This document shows, in pieces, positions 2,524 to 12,098 of a DNA stretch of 37,109 nucleotides. The DNA is taken from positions 1 to 37,109 of the IMG/VR virus record IMGVR_UViG_3300025112_000065; one strand, 5' to 3'. Numbering within the stretch: position 1 is the stretch's first letter; each line of letters starts with the position of its first letter. The notes under the pieces were generated by a model. The model made no database searches. It was not told the origin of the DNA and was given only the letters and a program-made list of their open reading frames with translations. The translations under genes were made by a program, and so were the position numbers. The DNA comes from a virus.

Positions 2524-2799
2524 ATGATAGATGAAAATGGAATAAATGAAGATGATAGGGAGATAATTGATATTGCCCTTGATGCTTTGAATCGAGAAGA
2601 CAAAGCATACAAACTAAAAACCCTTAGTGCTGTCAGCTCTGACAGAAGAAGATCCTATTATTTGAAGAACCAGGCTAAAGAGAAACAGCGAAGCCGAGAA
2701 TATTATCAAAAATATAAAAAAGAAATATTACTAAGGCAAAAGAAACGGATAATCAAACTAAAAACAGATAAATTAAAGGAGGGTTTAGGTGGCAACTAA
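2524..2799 (+). CDS. Small basic protein of unknown function
   Basis: A 91-residue protein with AAGGGAG upstream. An acidic N-terminus (residues 1-25) leads into a strongly basic, Tyr/Gln/Lys-rich helix (from about SDRRRSYYLKNQAKEK). The basic part resembles the next protein, so the two may be related nucleic-acid binders. Their ends overlap by 11 bases. Confidence 0.6.
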   Translation: MIDENGINEDDREIIDIALDALNREDKAYKLKTLSAVSSDRRRSYYLKNQAKEKQRSREYYQKYKKEILLRQKKRIIKLKTDKLKEGLGGN

Positions 2800-3088
2800 A
2801 GAGTATCAAAAAAAATATAATAAAAAAAACAAAAAGAAGATAAGGGCTTACCAAAAAGAATATCAACTAAAATATCGTGAAAAAAACATGGATATTTTGA
2901 ATGAAAAGAAAAGAAAATATTATGAGAAAAATAAGGAGATATTGAAAGTTTTAATAAAAGAATATCGTAATAGTAATAAAGACAAAGTAAAGATGTCTCA
3001 AGATAAATATTACATGAAGAATAAGGAAAAGATAAAAGCGTATCAAAAAGAATATTATAGAAAGAAAAAAGGGAAGATAAATGAATAG
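2789..3088 (+). CDS. Lysine/tyrosine-rich repeat protein
   Basis: A 99-residue protein starting at a GTG behind a strong AAGGAGGG site. It consists of degenerate copies of a YYxKNKExIKxYQKEY-like unit, about 15-20 residues each. Such basic repeat proteins occur in many phages and large viruses without known function; DNA binding is a guess from charge. The 3' end overlaps the zinc-ribbon gene. Confidence 0.6.
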   Translation: MATKEYQKKYNKKNKKKIRAYQKEYQLKYREKNMDILNEKKRKYYEKNKEILKVLIKEYRNSNKDKVKMSQDKYYMKNKEKIKAYQKEYYRKKKGKINE

Positions 3089-3212
3089 ATATAAAGGCGT
3101 AATGAGTAAGTGTTGTAATCACGAAATAAAGGTCGCTGGTAGAACTACTAAGTATTATGTTTGTAAGTAGTGTGATCTGCCTTGTGATGCAAAAAGAAGA
3201 GAATATCTTTAA
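3081..3212 (+). CDS. Small zinc-ribbon protein interrupted by an in-frame TAG
   Basis: The ATG at 3081 lies inside the end of the previous gene. The reading frame gives CCNHEIKVAGRTTKYYVCK, then a TAG at 3168-3170, then CDLPCDAKRREYL and a TAA. Phage zinc ribbons of this type need both cysteine pairs, and the TAG falls between the two cysteines of the second knuckle. Strictly read, the product is a 29-residue fragment ending at 3170. Either the gene is freshly broken, the amber codon is read through, or the base is an error. Confidence 0.5.
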
Positions 3213-3253
3213 TTTTGAAGAGTTGATGAAAAAATTATTTAAAGGGGCAGATA

Positions 3254-3370
3254 ATGCAAAAATATAAATGTAATAGGCCGTCATGTAAACACAGTTGGTA
3301 TCCCAGAAAGGCTCGAAAGCCAAAAATGTGTCCATTATGTAAAAATCCTCACTCAGTTGAAAAAGCTTAA
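3254..3370 (+). CDS. 38-residue zinc-ribbon protein
   Basis: The ATG follows AAAGGGGCAG. The peptide has two knuckles, CNRPSC and CPLC, around a WYPRKARKPKM segment, matching a widespread tiny zinc-ribbon protein of phages and bacteria that is read as a nucleic-acid-binding or adaptor peptide. It lies just upstream of the replication initiator. The motif is convincing despite the short length. Confidence 0.7.
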   Translation: MQKYKCNRPSCKHSWYPRKARKPKMCPLCKNPHSVEKA

Positions 3371-3406
3371 AGTGATACCAAATTTATACATGAAAGGGGC
3401 TTTATA

Positions 3407-4234
3407 ATGGCACGTCCAAAAACAAATACAGTTGACTATTTTCCAATGTTTTCACATACATCCAAAACCTGTGAGATGTTACAAGCAAAATACGGTTCAG
3501 TAGGTTATGCATTTTTCTATAAGCTGCTTCAACTACTAGCTAACGAAGATGGTCACTTTTACGATGCAAGAGACCCAATGAGTATAGAGTTTCTGGAACA
3601 GAAACTATGCTGTAATGAGGTTTCTGTCACAGAAATGCTAGGTAAGTTGAGTTCCTGGAACAAGATAGATCGGGAATTATGGGGCCAGAAGATAATTTGG
3701 TACCAAGGCTTCGTAAATACCCTAGAACCGGTCTACAAAAAAAGAGAAAGAGATATACCGACGAAATTTGATATATCAGAAAAATTAGGGGTTTCTGTCA
3801 CAGAAACTAGGGTTTCCGGAACAGAAACCACACCTAAACCCTCATTTCCGGAACAGACTGGTCCAGAAAGTACACAAAGTAAAGTAAATAATACTAAATT
3901 AAATAATATTAATAATATATATATACATAAGGGGAAAATTAAAAAAAATATATTTCTAGATAATGTTCTTTTAACTGATGATGATTATTGTGAGCTTCTA
4001 ATTTCACTTGGGGACAATCTAACAGGATTAGCAATAACAAAAGTGTCTTTGTGGAAGAAACAAAAGGGACATAAGCCAAATTATTATGCGGACGATAAGT
4101 CTGCAATAGAAAATTGGGCGTTAAGCGCTGCATTGAAAGAAAATCCAAACATTCAAGAAAGGGCGTCAACAAAAGACAAGCTTAACAAGATCAAATTAAA
4201 AATAATCGAAGATAAAAAAAGGACGGCGAAATGA
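3407..4234 (+). CDS. Replication initiator with DUF4373 (Lin1244/Lin1753-like) N-terminal domain
   Basis: A 275-residue protein. Residues 1-~105 (MARPKTNTVDYFPMF... AKYGSVGYAFFYKLLQLL) match the DUF4373 type winged-helix domain found at the start of phage replication proteins. Residues ~125-175 are a low-complexity linker, and the C-terminal ~90 residues form a separate helical domain as in DnaD-like or O-like initiators. The gene contains six 17-bp palindromic iterons between the two domains and an AT-rich tract after them, the arrangement of a lambda O-type initiator with an internal origin. The next gene overlaps by ATGA and could be a helicase loader. Confidence 0.75.
   Translation: MARPKTNTVDYFPMFSHTSKTCEMLQAKYGSVGYAFFYKLLQLLANEDGHFYDARDPMSIEFLEQKLCCNEVSVTEMLGKLSSWNKIDRELWGQKIIWYQGFVNTLEPVYKKRERDIPTKFDISEKLGVSVTETRVSGTETTPKPSFPEQTGPESTQSKVNNTKLNNINNIYIHKGKIKKNIFLDNVLLTDDDYCELLISLGDNLTGLAITKVSLWKKQKGHKPNYYADDKSAIENWALSAALKENPNIQERASTKDKLNKIKLKIIEDKKRTAK
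3589..3860. repeat. Six 17-bp palindromic iterons inside the initiator gene
   Basis: Copies start at 3589, 3620, 3651, 3791, 3812 and 3844. The consensus is GTTTCTGGAACAGAAAC, two 7-base inverted arms around GAA or TCA. Copies 1 and 4 are perfect palindromes, copies 2 and 5 have one deviation, and copies 3 and 6 are degenerate. Spacings of 31, 31, 21 and 32 bases are close to whole helical turns, so bound dimers would face the same side. Probable binding sites for the initiator encoded here. Confidence 0.75.
3872..3965. other. AT-rich tract next to the iterons, probable DNA-unwinding element of the origin
   Basis: About 90 bases directly after the last iteron are nearly free of G and C, with runs such as AATAATATTAATAATATATA, still inside the initiator gene where they encode an Asn/Ile/Lys linker. 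Iterons followed by such a tract are the layout of theta-type phage origins. Confidence 0.6.
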
Positions 4235-4707
4235 GCATAGAATGTTATTTAACAGCCTACAAAGACCTTTCAGAATTCTTTGGCAAGACGCGTTATACTA
4301 GTGAGTATATTGAACATCAAGCAGCTAAATTTAAGGCCAATATCAAGGATGATGGAATTCTTATAGAAACCTTTGAAAGTTTCAAATCAAAGGATCCATA
4401 CAGGGTAGATATCTCTCCAGAGGCCATTGAAAAGGAGTATTGGAGGCGTTATAGGTCTGAGAAAGGCAATGACAGCGCAGTTGTTAAAAAAGTGGATTTA
4501 AGTCCATGTGAGCATGGTCTGTGTGAATTAAGTTCAAAAGGTGTTATTTTTGCTGTGAAAGGTAGGTACACAAATACATTTATTTGTCCTTGTAGTAATT
4601 TAAGTGATAGCAAATATCCAGTTTGGATGAAAGGAGGATTTAACAACGGTTTTGTATTAGAAAGAGATTTAAATGAAGATGAATATGAAGATGAAGTTAT
4701 GAATTAA
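4231..4707 (+). CDS. Unknown replication-module protein, possible helicase loader
   Basis: A 158-residue protein starting in an ATGA overlap with the initiator. The N-terminal half is helical and charged (KDLSEFFGKTRYTSEYIEHQ). The C-terminal half has a cysteine group (CEHGLC ... CPC) that may be a small zinc site, then an acidic tail. The position immediately after an O-like initiator is where phages keep the P-like helicase loader, but I see no ATPase motif and do not recognise the family. Confidence 0.55.
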   Translation: MSIECYLTAYKDLSEFFGKTRYTSEYIEHQAAKFKANIKDDGILIETFESFKSKDPYRVDISPEAIEKEYWRRYRSEKGNDSAVVKKVDLSPCEHGLCELSSKGVIFAVKGRYTNTFICPCSNLSDSKYPVWMKGGFNNGFVLERDLNEDEYEDEVMN

Positions 4708-4724
4708 ACTCATTGGAGGAAATC

Positions 4725-5234
4725 ATGGTTTATCTAAGTCATAAGACGGAATTAGCAACAAAAGCTATTAATTTAAACGAGGTTATTAATTTAAACGAGG
4801 TTATTAGAAAAATATTGAAAATAGTATTAAGTGACATAAAAAACAAATACCTTAAGCTCAAATTCAAAAGGAAATATGGGAATAGAAGGGTAACGTTTAA
4901 AGGTAAGTCATTTGATTCACAAAAAGAAGCGAATAGATATATTATCCTGCTTGATATGCAGAAGAGAGGGCTTATATCTAATTTGGAGTTACAACCTAAG
5001 TTCTTGTTATTAAATCCATTTACACTTGAAGAAAGAAACAAAATAAAAGTTAGGAAAGTTGAATATATTGCTGACTTTCAATATAACCAACGTGAAGAGG
5101 TGATTGTCGAAGATGTAAAGGGGTCTAAAAAAACTTTAACCGATGTATACAAGCTTAAAAAGAAGTTGTTTCTAAATAAGTATGGAAAATACTTTACATT
5201 TAAAGAAATCTATGACATAAATATTATGCACTGA
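4725..5234 (+). CDS. DUF1064-family PD-(D/E)xK-type nuclease
   Basis: Starts at the ATG after TTGGAGGAA. After an N-terminal extension of ~45 residues, the sequence follows DUF1064 proteins: YGNRRVTFKGKSFDSQKEANRY, LELQPKF, then YIADFQY and VEDVKG, the Asp and Asp-x-Lys of a PD-(D/E)xK core, and the ending VYKLKKKLF...FKEI. These phage proteins are thought to be structure-specific or resolvase-like endonucleases, which suits a recombination and replication module. The extension contains an 18-bp tandem duplication. Confidence 0.8.
   Translation: MVYLSHKTELATKAINLNEVINLNEVIRKILKIVLSDIKNKYLKLKFKRKYGNRRVTFKGKSFDSQKEANRYIILLDMQKRGLISNLELQPKFLLLNPFTLEERNKIKVRKVEYIADFQYNQREEVIVEDVKGSKKTLTDVYKLKKKLFLNKYGKYFTFKEIYDINIMH
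4767..4802. repeat. 18-bp tandem duplication
   Basis: ATTAATTTAAACGAGGTT occurs twice without a gap and inserts INLNEV twice near the N-terminus of the DUF1064 protein, keeping the frame. It looks like a recent slippage duplication outside the catalytic core. Confidence 0.85.
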
Positions 5235-10483: not shown

Positions 10484-11080
10484 TTTAAAAATGACCCATT
10501 AATAAGTTTGTCTGAGATATATAAAGTAAATGAAAAATTTGATAGAAAACAATTAAACCGTTGGTCAAAAAAAGGTCATATAAAAAAAATAAGGAATGGA
10601 TTCTATGTTTTTAGTGATAAAAAATTAAATGAAGAGTACTTGTGTCTAATTTCGAATAAGATATATAAGCATTCTTATGTATCAATGGAATTTGCTTTAT
10701 CGTATTATTCATTTATACCTGAAGGTGTTTATACAATTACATCTGTGACTACAGAGAAAACAAATTTATTTGAATCTGAAATTGCTACTTTCCAATATTA
10801 TAATATTAAGAAAGACTTAATGTATGGATACGAGTTATTGTGTCTTAATGAAATTAATTATATATTTGCTTGTCCTGAGAAAGCGCTTTTAGACTTTTTG
10901 TATTTGAAAAAAAACATAAGAGATAAATATGACATGACGGAATTAAGATTAAATATGGATGAAATTTATCATAAAATTAACTGGAATAAGTTTAACAAAT
11001 ATTTAAAAGCATTTAATTCAAAGACATTAAACAAAAGAGTTAAAATATTAAAGGAAAATCTAATAGGATTAACAAGTTAA
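10457..11080 (+). CDS. abiEi: AbiEi-type antitoxin / transcriptional regulator (orphan)
   Basis: A 207-residue protein. The N-terminal ~55 residues form a winged-helix pattern ending in LNRWSKKGHIKKIRNGFYVFSD, typical of AbiEi-family proteins. The middle, YVSMEFALSYYSFIPEG...TSVT and a later CPEKALLDFLYL block, is the AbiEi core. In type IV systems AbiEi represses the operon and counteracts the nucleotidyltransferase toxin AbiEii, normally encoded just downstream. Here no toxin gene follows: a minus-strand tRNA does. The gene has its own promoter and stands apart from phage operons, consistent with late acquisition. A role as anti-AbiE or superinfection factor is inference. Confidence 0.75.
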   Translation: MKFFDFYQQFKNDPLISLSEIYKVNEKFDRKQLNRWSKKGHIKKIRNGFYVFSDKKLNEEYLCLISNKIYKHSYVSMEFALSYYSFIPEGVYTITSVTTEKTNLFESEIATFQYYNIKKDLMYGYELLCLNEINYIFACPEKALLDFLYLKKNIRDKYDMTELRLNMDEIYHKINWNKFNKYLKAFNSKTLNKRVKILKENLIGLTS

Positions 11081-11107
11081 GATAGCTTGCCTATATTTTA
11101 AGTAAAT

Positions 11108-11182
11108 TGGTTGTTAAGGTTAGAATCGAACTAACGACCATTCAATTATCGGTTGAACGCTCTACCACTGAGCTACTGAACA
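11108..11182 (-). tRNA. tRNA with GAT anticodon (tRNA-Ile), unusual C33
   Basis: On the minus strand 75 bases fold as a full cloverleaf: acceptor TGTTCAG/CTTAACA (one C-A mismatch), D stem GCTC/GAGC, anticodon stem TTCAA/TTGAA, T stem GTTAG/CTAAC with loop TTCGATT, discriminator A and an encoded CCA. The anticodon loop is CCGATAA, so the anticodon reads GAT, but position 33 is C instead of the near-universal T. The 5' end abuts the U-run of a terminator. Confidence 0.85.
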
Positions 11183-11222
11183 AAAAAAAGTCCTTCTAGC
11201 GATTATGGTAGCTAGAAGGACT
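11182..11222 (-). terminator. Rho-independent terminator of the minus-strand gene group
   Basis: A 12-bp perfect stem (11189-11200 with 11211-11222, arm AGTCCTTCTAGC) with a 10-base loop. Read on the minus strand it is followed by a run of eight T. It ends transcription of the small genes to its right and touches the first base of the tRNA, so the tRNA needs read-through or another promoter. Confidence 0.8.
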
Positions 11223-11247
11223 AAAGGGCCTTTCATTATAAACTAAT

Positions 11248-11493
11248 TTAAAGGTCCAAATCAACTTCATCATGAATATGCTTCCTAATTTCAAAACAAA
11301 AATCATGTAAATCATTTAAATCTTTTCCCATGTAATTGTATGTTCCTGGTATTTGATGTTTGTATATGTTTCTTAACTCATCATCAATATCAGATAATAA
11401 TCTAAACATTTTATTTGCTTGTAGCATTATTTTGTAGTCATATTTATCACTACTGTCTTCATTTTCTAAGTCAAAACTAAAATATGTTTTCAT
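11248..11493 (-). CDS. Small conserved phage protein of unknown function
   Basis: An 81-residue protein behind GGGAGGGTTAT. The start KTYFSFDLENED followed by a helical FRLLSDIDDELRN segment recalls a group of small phage proteins with an FDL..E opening and a conserved LxDIDxxLR helix; no function is known. It is the last and best supported of four overlapping minus-strand genes and starts in an ATGA overlap with the gene before it. Confidence 0.65.
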   Translation of the reverse strand: MKTYFSFDLENEDSSDKYDYKIMLQANKMFRLLSDIDDELRNIYKHQIPGTYNYMGKDLNDLHDFCFEIRKHIHDEVDLDL

Positions 11494-11639
11494 ATAACCC
11501 TCCCTTCAATAATACCCTTAACTCTCCTTCTAACATATGCAGCCAATTTATCTAATGCAAGAATATTATGCCCTAAATTAACAGATAACATATCTGGAGT
11601 TCTAAATAAAGCATAAACTTTCCTATTTAGGTTTTTCAT
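11490..11639 (-). CDS. 49-residue unknown protein, minus-strand group
   Basis: Ends in an ATGA overlap with the 81-residue gene. It is basic with a central hydrophobic helix (LGHNILALDKLAAYVRRRV). No family recognised and no clear ribosome binding site. Support comes from overlap coupling and position. Confidence 0.4.
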   Translation of the reverse strand: MKNLNRKVYALFRTPDMLSVNLGHNILALDKLAAYVRRRVKGIIEGRVI

Positions 11640-11644
11640 CTGTT

Positions 11645-11812
11645 TTAATATTCAAATAAATAGGTTTCATATTCGTCCCTACTACGTGTTTTAATGAACT
11701 TAAGTGTTTTATAAAGAATAAGAACTCTAAAATAGACATCAAACGCCACGCGTCCAACCACCAATCTTTTTCCACTTTCTTCATTAAATATATTATCGTT
11801 TAAGTTGTTCAT
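11645..11812 (-). CDS. 55-residue unknown protein, minus-strand group
   Basis: The start overlaps the stop of the preceding 30-residue gene (TTATGA), and the stop lies five bases before the next start. It begins MNNLND, as does the + strand gene at 7851, and continues with VYFRVLILYKTLKFIKTRSRD. Unrecognised. Confidence 0.4.
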   Translation of the reverse strand: MNNLNDNIFNEESGKRLVVGRVAFDVYFRVLILYKTLKFIKTRSRDEYETYLFEY

Positions 11813-11901
11813 AACATAATGATACCATCATATTGGAGCCTTTTTATTACGTTCCCTACCCTAACCATTAAAAAAACAAGAAAACCGCTAAAATAGGACA
11901 T
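11809..11901 (-). CDS. 30-residue membrane-like peptide, first of the minus-strand group
   Basis: A strong GGAGGATAATTAAT lies before its ATG, the best binding site of the four minus-strand genes. The N-terminal half is hydrophobic (YFSGFLVFLMV). Very short, but the binding site and the overlapping next gene make translation plausible. The AT-rich 11902-12098 upstream should hold the promoter of the group (a TATGAT lies near 11960 on the minus strand); I cannot fix a -35. Confidence 0.4.
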   Translation of the reverse strand: MSYFSGFLVFLMVRVGNVIKRLQYDGIIML

Positions 11902-12098
11902 ATTAATTATCCTCCATTATTTTCTCTCGAAAAACCTATTTGTTTTGTATCATAACAGCATTACGAGAGTTTTGCTTGTGCTTGATTTATGATTGGGGTT
12001 GAATATAACTTAATAACTGTTGTGTGCAATAACCTATAATGTTAAGATATCCTACGCTCTCTTGTTAATGTAGGTTGCTCGAGAAATAAATTATTTAT

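Follow-up and report, generated by a model that had tools for sequence, protein, structure and literature searches.

The gene at positions 3407-4234 of a single IMG/VR virus record, analysed here as one 37-kb stretch of DNA (hereafter the window), encodes a replication initiator and very probably contains a theta-type origin of replication, the iterons of which would be bound by the N-domain of the initiator itself. The sequence data show the sites, their helical phasing, their conservation at the DNA level, a junction sequence, a pentamer array, and the lowest duplex stability in the window. With iterons phased on one helix face beside the weakest duplex, in an initiator gene belonging to a replication module, the most likely reading is an origin to which the encoded protein itself binds. 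The features on which the argument draws are as follows.

3407..4234, plus strand: replication initiator gene, 275 aa, comprising a Lin1244_N N-domain, a disordered linker and a helical C-domain
3437..3694, plus strand: Lin1244_N coding part (residues 11-96; Pfam match, pLDDT about 95), which holds iterons 1-3
3589..3605, no strand assigned: iteron 1, GTTTCTGGAACAGAAAC, 7/8 arm pairs
3620..3636, no strand assigned: iteron 2, GTTTCTGTCACAGAAAT, 7/8 arm pairs
3651..3667, no strand assigned: iteron 3, GTTCCTGGAACAAGATA, degenerate, 4/8 arm pairs, assigned chiefly via its 31-base spacing
3767..3946, plus strand: linker-coding part (residues 121-180; AlphaFold, mostly disordered), which contains iterons 4-7 and the array
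3791..3807, no strand assigned: iteron 4, GTTTCTGTCACAGAAAC, 8/8 arm pairs, the sole perfect 17-bp palindrome
3812..3828, no strand assigned: iteron 5, GTTTCCGGAACAGAAAC, 6/8 arm pairs
3844..3860, no strand assigned: iteron 6, ATTTCCGGAACAGACTG, degenerate, 3/8 arm pairs
3854..3870, no strand assigned: iteron 7, half site CAGACTGGTCCAGAAAG, overlapping iteron 6 and ending just short of the A/T tract
3873..3879, plus strand: junction CACAAAG, between the last iteron and the array
3878..3912, plus strand: pentamer array AGTAA AGTAA ATAAT ACTAA ATTAA ATAAT ATTAA, in units of A-[not A]-n-A-n
3885..3964, no strand assigned: lowest-stability 80 bp by nearest-neighbour stability, the predicted DNA unwinding element

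The initiator and its surroundings

The product of the reading frame at 3407-4234 matches Lin1244_N (PF14297, formerly DUF4373) in Pfam at 31.8 bits, against a curated cut-off of 25. Its top PHROG is phrog_2562, annotated as 'replication initiation protein' (4e-18; annotation-based), and a weak match to an O-like PHROG is also found (7e-4). An AlphaFold model built from a 59-sequence alignment shows three parts: residues 1-120 form a confidently modelled N-domain (pLDDT mostly about 95), residues 181-275 a helical C-domain, and the linker between them (121-180) is largely disordered. Structure and sequence searches of the PDB returned no significant match, and the DNA-binding fold is accordingly a predicted one; on the model, the Lin1244_N domain would be a winged-helix-like iteron binder. 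The C-domain is weakly DnaB_2-like (hhalign E 4e-4 versus TP901-1 Rep, probability 36).

The surroundings of the initiator gene are, by annotation, those of a phage replication module: an annealing protein of Erf/Rad52 type is encoded at 1645-2448, and a resolvase-like DUF1064 protein at 4713-5234. An Rfam search of 3000-5000 returned no match. Two adjacent small Lys/Tyr-rich reading frames occupy 2524-3088, the second consisting of ~15-residue repeats (YQKEYYRKNKEKIKA-like) encoded by 45-base DNA repeats. At 3081-3212 is a small zinc-ribbon-like frame, MNRYKGVMSKCCNHEIKVAGRTTKYYVCK*CDLPCDAKRREYL, in which an in-frame TAG falls between two cysteines; the stretch is identical in L002, a contig from a different sample. 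Six larger window ORFs also terminate with TAG, which makes wholesale reassignment of this codon unlikely, and the interrupted frame possibly reflects decay or read-through.

Iterons in the initiator gene

The initial annotation had described six GTTTCTGNNNCAGAAAC-like copies inside a DUF4373-type initiator gene, and these are indeed present, four of them strong and two weak, with starts at 3589, 3620, 3651, 3791, 3812 and 3844 (start-to-start distances of 31, 31, 140, 21 and 32). Two perfect palindromes had been claimed, of which only the copy at 3791 is perfect over 17 bp. Likewise, the assignment of all copies to the linker-coding part stands for copies 4-6 and fails for copies 1-3, which code for the N-domain. 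Specifically, iterons 1-3 occupy codons 61-87, within Lin1244_N and predicted helices, and iterons 4-7 lie in the disordered linker. The centre of iteron 7 is ~10.5 bases ahead of the junction, and relatives carry CAGAAAGTACACAAAG. When GTTTCTGNNACAGAAAC was searched for with up to three mismatches, 14 strand-hits were obtained in the window versus 1.1 expected from shuffles (largest 5); beyond the four strong copies, a match on both strands occurs at one weaker site only, 23871.

Palindromes of this size are typical of operators, and two of those observed have terminator-like stem scores on the minus strand. Both points speak for an alternative in which the initiator or a phage repressor uses the iterons as operators controlling transcription through the initiator gene, with replication starting elsewhere. 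This alternative is nevertheless very unlikely: the sites lie 180-460 bases within the coding region, rather than at a promoter, promoter-like sites are no commoner than in shuffles, and the junction and pentamer array beside the least stable stretch are left unaccounted for. An origin within the gene remains the preferred reading.

Conservation at the DNA level

A second alternative holds that the repeats are a feature of the protein, namely VSVTET-like and SKVKE-like linker repeats, with the DNA repeats as a by-product. In its favour, iterons 2, 4 and 5 share one frame and encode VSVTE/VSGTE, and for the window gene by itself the synonymous test is weak. A protein-preserving shuffle of that gene gave P 0.135 for whole sites (not significant) and P 0.02 for half-sites, a borderline outcome, and the case for DNA-level sites is made by the family data. 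Against the protein-level alternative, the 31-32 spacings break the reading frame; the offsets are 2 for copy 1, 1 for copy 3, and 0 for copies 2, 4 and 5. The sites occupy all three reading frames, in line with conservation at the level of DNA.

Relatives were collected with an alignment query, which yielded 79 viral and 38 genome loci, with a closer set of 80; queries with the single protein returned an identical contig and one distant phage only. Homologues retain the sites, as the initial annotation anticipated, from individual relatives through to sets of 135-195 non-redundant genes. In the nearest distinct virus, L010 (a 39-kb contig; 66% identity over 143 residues), the linker differs in protein sequence yet contains GTTTCTGTGACAGAAAC twice, together with several weaker copies, and L012, at 35% identity, carries GTTTCTGTACCACAGAAAC and GTTTCTGCTGACATAAAC. 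L011 and the GC-rich gut members are without such copies. Some Lin1244_N relatives of gut (GC-rich) and Porphyromonas origin, among them L003, L014, L088 and L089, have neither the array nor comparable iterons, which implies, for L003, L014 and L088, that the origin is elsewhere or different.

All shuffles in the conservation tests preserve both the protein and the codon pool, and the family-wide enrichment survives this constraint, which weighs against a protein-level by-product. Among 136 non-redundant genes, AGAAAC/GTTTCT occurs 274 times versus 139 expected and AGTAAAG 319 times versus 81, while CATTAA/TTAATG, which defines a second iteron class, occurs 325 times versus 156. Similarly, a motif-free (de novo) palindrome search of 195 genes found 1226 palindromes versus 740 in protein-preserving shuffles, the leading arms being GTTAATG (70 versus 4.4 shuffled) and GTTTCTG (31 versus 1.2). 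Without selection by class, GTTTCTG is found 38 times versus 8.3 in codons 51-90, 66 versus 19.4 in the linker, and 11 versus 10.6 in the 3' part; for both GTTTCTG and GTTAATG, again without class selection, clear enrichment is confined to codons 51-90 and the linker. Half-sites exceed synonymous shuffles by ~3- to 5-fold in both clusters.

Iteron class follows the tree of the N-domain, with 8 changes versus 39.5 shuffled, and the window gene sits in a supported 47-row tree set that is entirely of the GTTTCTG class. This pattern would fit recognition of the iterons by the N-domain, with which it is only consistent, since gene inheritance alone also clusters the class label.

Helical phasing

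The spacings of 31, 31, 21 and 32 in the window had been described as near whole helical turns, and the family bears this out. Among 240 distances between adjacent iterons, 97 fall at 20.5-21.5 and 109 at 30.5-33.5, and a period of 10.5 gives a mean resultant length R of 0.83. Periods between 10.25 and 11.5 give comparably high R values, which means that whole turns are established and the exact pitch is not. The distance from the centre of the last iteron to the junction is 9-11 bases in 69/96 genes, and is mostly near 21, 31-33, 42 or 52 in the remainder.

Junction, pentamer array and predicted unwinding element

An A/T tract had been reported behind the iterons, and is confirmed (3878-3957, 89% A+T) as the least stable stretch; the pentamer array it contains had been overlooked. 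Duplex stability was calculated from nearest-neighbour values, and the same region also holds the least stable 60- and 100-mer of the window. GC skew is positive across almost the entire window with no turn at 3.6 kb, and is uninformative on the position of the origin; the sole 1-kb stretch of negative skew, 11001-12000, carries a minus-strand tRNA-Ile (11108-11182) downstream of the terminase gene.

In the window, the array begins one helical turn past the last iteron and has A at positions 1 and 4 in 7/7 units, the other positions being degenerate. Its minus strand (3878-3912) presents seven in-register TnnT, one every 5 bases. The junction is a family feature, in that 88/135 relatives have one C[ACT]CAAAG, and no more, between gene positions 330 and 640, and the array alignment comprises 88 genes anchored upon it. 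Across these 88 genes, A is kept at unit positions 1 and 4 through six units as the remaining positions vary, and AnnA is found in 88% of units versus 55% in protein-preserving shuffles. Perfect arrays of six A-[not A]-n-A-n units occur in 72% of 135 genes, as against 1% of shuffles; the 400-base flanks yielded 0%. A reading of the CACAA junction as a DnaA box was rejected: judged by eye, it suits AATCCACA variants alone and not the common AGTACACA and AATCCCCA.

The array also bears on the protein-level alternative, as it encodes the SKVKE-like repeats in a constant frame. That constancy, however, is forced: AGTAA forms a stop in the third frame. AGTAAAG is confined to the other two frames; in the third the unit is AGGAA, ATAAA or AGTAT instead, and the SKVKE-like repeats are explained by these changes at the stop-forming frame. 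Moreover, A is fixed at the silent positions of the array (0.93-0.98 versus 0.45-0.65), and linker Ser preceding Lys uses the codon AGT in 81% of cases versus 29% for other linker Ser. Considered with the family-wide enrichment, these observations leave the view of the DNA repeats as a by-product of the protein with a minimal probability, and favour sites read as DNA.

A third alternative accepts the origin and regards the array as a generic A/T-rich unwinding element, the five-base period of which arose by drift or slippage and is read by no protein. Iteron-adjacent A/T-rich elements often need low stability alone, and the window array is degenerate past its seven units. This account is unlikely, though less so than the two above, given that the A residues of positions 1 and 4 are kept while other positions vary, and that period and phase are kept among family members less than 30% identical, GC-richer variants included (in L106, AGCAT AGCAA AGAAA AGCAT). 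In L206-L285 the pentamer array is shared, and the iterons that it follows diverge widely in sequence (CGTTCAACGACCGTTCAAC, GCAATGCGAACGCAATGC, GTTACG..GTAAC, CCCATTTG..CAAATG).

When IMG/VR was scanned with a 24-base array probe, which itself fixes the frame and so deprives frame of any weight in this test, 80/80 of the matches listed fell within an ORF on its coding strand, most of them directly after palindromes, which belonged to several classes, and 58/60 representatives among the matches listed were Lin1244_N. Four initiator genes of other families (80alpha ORF20, pSK41 RepA, TP901-1 Rep, A118 gp49) reach array scores of 14-16/18. The array is present in a Deltaproteobacteria bin, though the binning of this prophage contig is uncertain. 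No association of the array with DnaD-type loaders is claimed: in comparison with genes upstream of DnaC/IstB-type loaders, medians were equal (P 0.011 on raw scores; shuffle-corrected P 0.15, not significant), and many genes upstream of a DnaC-type loader also carry the array. In view of this independence of loader type, the weakly DnaB_2-like C-domain and the Deltaproteobacteria array, a DnaD-type domain is no more than a candidate reader of the array.

Proposed mechanism and significance

Protein binding, dimerisation, melting and helicase loading at the proposed origin are each predicted from the arrangement described above. The N-terminal winged-helix-like domain, as a dimer, would bind the 17-18 bp palindromic iterons, and dimers bound to the two clusters (codons 61-87 and the linker), lying on one helix face, would form a compact nucleoprotein complex, its last member one helical turn away from the CACAA junction. 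Strain in this complex may open the adjoining A/T-rich stretch, the weakest duplex of the window, whereupon the initiator or helicase-loading proteins would probably use the regular pentamers of one strand as a strand-specific track for binding single-stranded DNA. The C-terminal domain would recruit the helicase loader. The disordered protein linker may exist largely because its DNA is the origin.

TnnT, here repeated every five bases, is the core of the B. subtilis DnaD recognition element, which suggests a single-strand track. One reading, with somewhat less than even odds, is that the array acts as a strand-specific track recognised in single-stranded form, equivalent in phages to the DnaA-trio or DnaD element of bacteria; once the iteron complex has opened the duplex, its paired T residues would be read every five bases by the initiator or helicase-loading partners. 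If the array is such a track, origin opening outside the DnaA system becomes directly testable, and the array would be a hallmark of a very large, largely uncharacterised initiator family.

Some hundreds of the scanned viral contigs and prophages carry Lin1244/DUF4373 initiators, and the searched literature describes no binding site or origin for them. Searches with the array strings found no phage paper, and DUF4373 appears there only in papers on Bacteroides iron. The Lin1244_N iterons and their arrangement in two clusters appear to be undescribed in the searched literature, which omits most subscription papers, as do the junction and the pentamer array. A sequence rule composed of the iteron classes, phasing of 21 or 31-33 bases, the CACAA junction and the array would pinpoint the origin at single-base resolution in most members, and supplies candidate binding sites, open to test, for a poorly studied initiator family. 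The gene further illustrates how one coding sequence may carry two messages, the array repeats switching at just the point at which a third AGTAA would create a stop codon.

Comparison with known systems

Ori-lambda consists of iterons plus an A/T-rich tract, and the lambda initiator and iterons are different from those of the window gene. The design of an origin within a gene is itself already known, from lambda O, SPP1 gp38 and pSK41 RepA; the lambda origin lies within initiator gene O (PMC6022878). The initial annotation had proposed the lambda O plan with another initiator and other iterons, a proposal that the sequence tests support, although more similar precedents than lambda are offered by RepA_N plasmids, SPP1 and 80alpha.

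In pSK41 RepA, the N-domain binds the Rep boxes, repeats in the middle of the rep gene, where the DNA coding for the linker forms the origin; the protein linker thus encoded is dispensable, and the C-domain is DnaD-like (PMC5703833). As in RepA_N plasmids, iterons of the window gene lie in the linker-coding centre (copies 4-7, residues 121-180); unlike them, copies 1-3 lie in the N-domain part. pSK41 RepA differs further in having PF06970 rather than PF14297, other iterons and no pentamer array (14/18). The window initiator has no Pfam match to PF06970 and an hhalign probability of 0.1 with pSK41 RepA, and profile comparisons found no homology to RepA_N or 80alpha ORF20.

SPP1 oriL has repeats and an A/T-rich unwinding element inside initiator gene 38 (PMC6316719); as described in the literature, gp38 is set apart from the window initiator as a different initiator with direct repeats. 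In 80alpha, an origin embedded in ORF20 was suggested by non-complementation (PMC5499656). ORF20 has an annotated rep_origin within the gene and, like the window gene, palindromes followed by an A/T tract; unlike it, ORF20 has Phg_2220_C / HTH_36 domains and a trinucleotide-like tract, with no pentamer array (14/18). That ACT/AAT tract (ACTACTAATAATAATAGTACTAATAAT; L329, 4440-5210) stands behind the palindromes and is, by eye, nearer to the complement of DnaA-trios than to the pentamer array.

The pentamer array differs from a DnaA-trio in its 5-base unit, A-[not A]-n-A-n rather than 3'-GAT-5' triplets. The DnaD recognition element of B. subtilis consists of at least two 5'-TnnT-3' on one strand (PMC10201434), and the minus strand of 3878-3912 contains seven of these motifs in register, TnnT being common in A/T-rich DNA. 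As in B. subtilis oriC, putative initiator sites in the window gene are directly followed by a short-period motif, here a candidate single-strand element, with TnnT on one strand.
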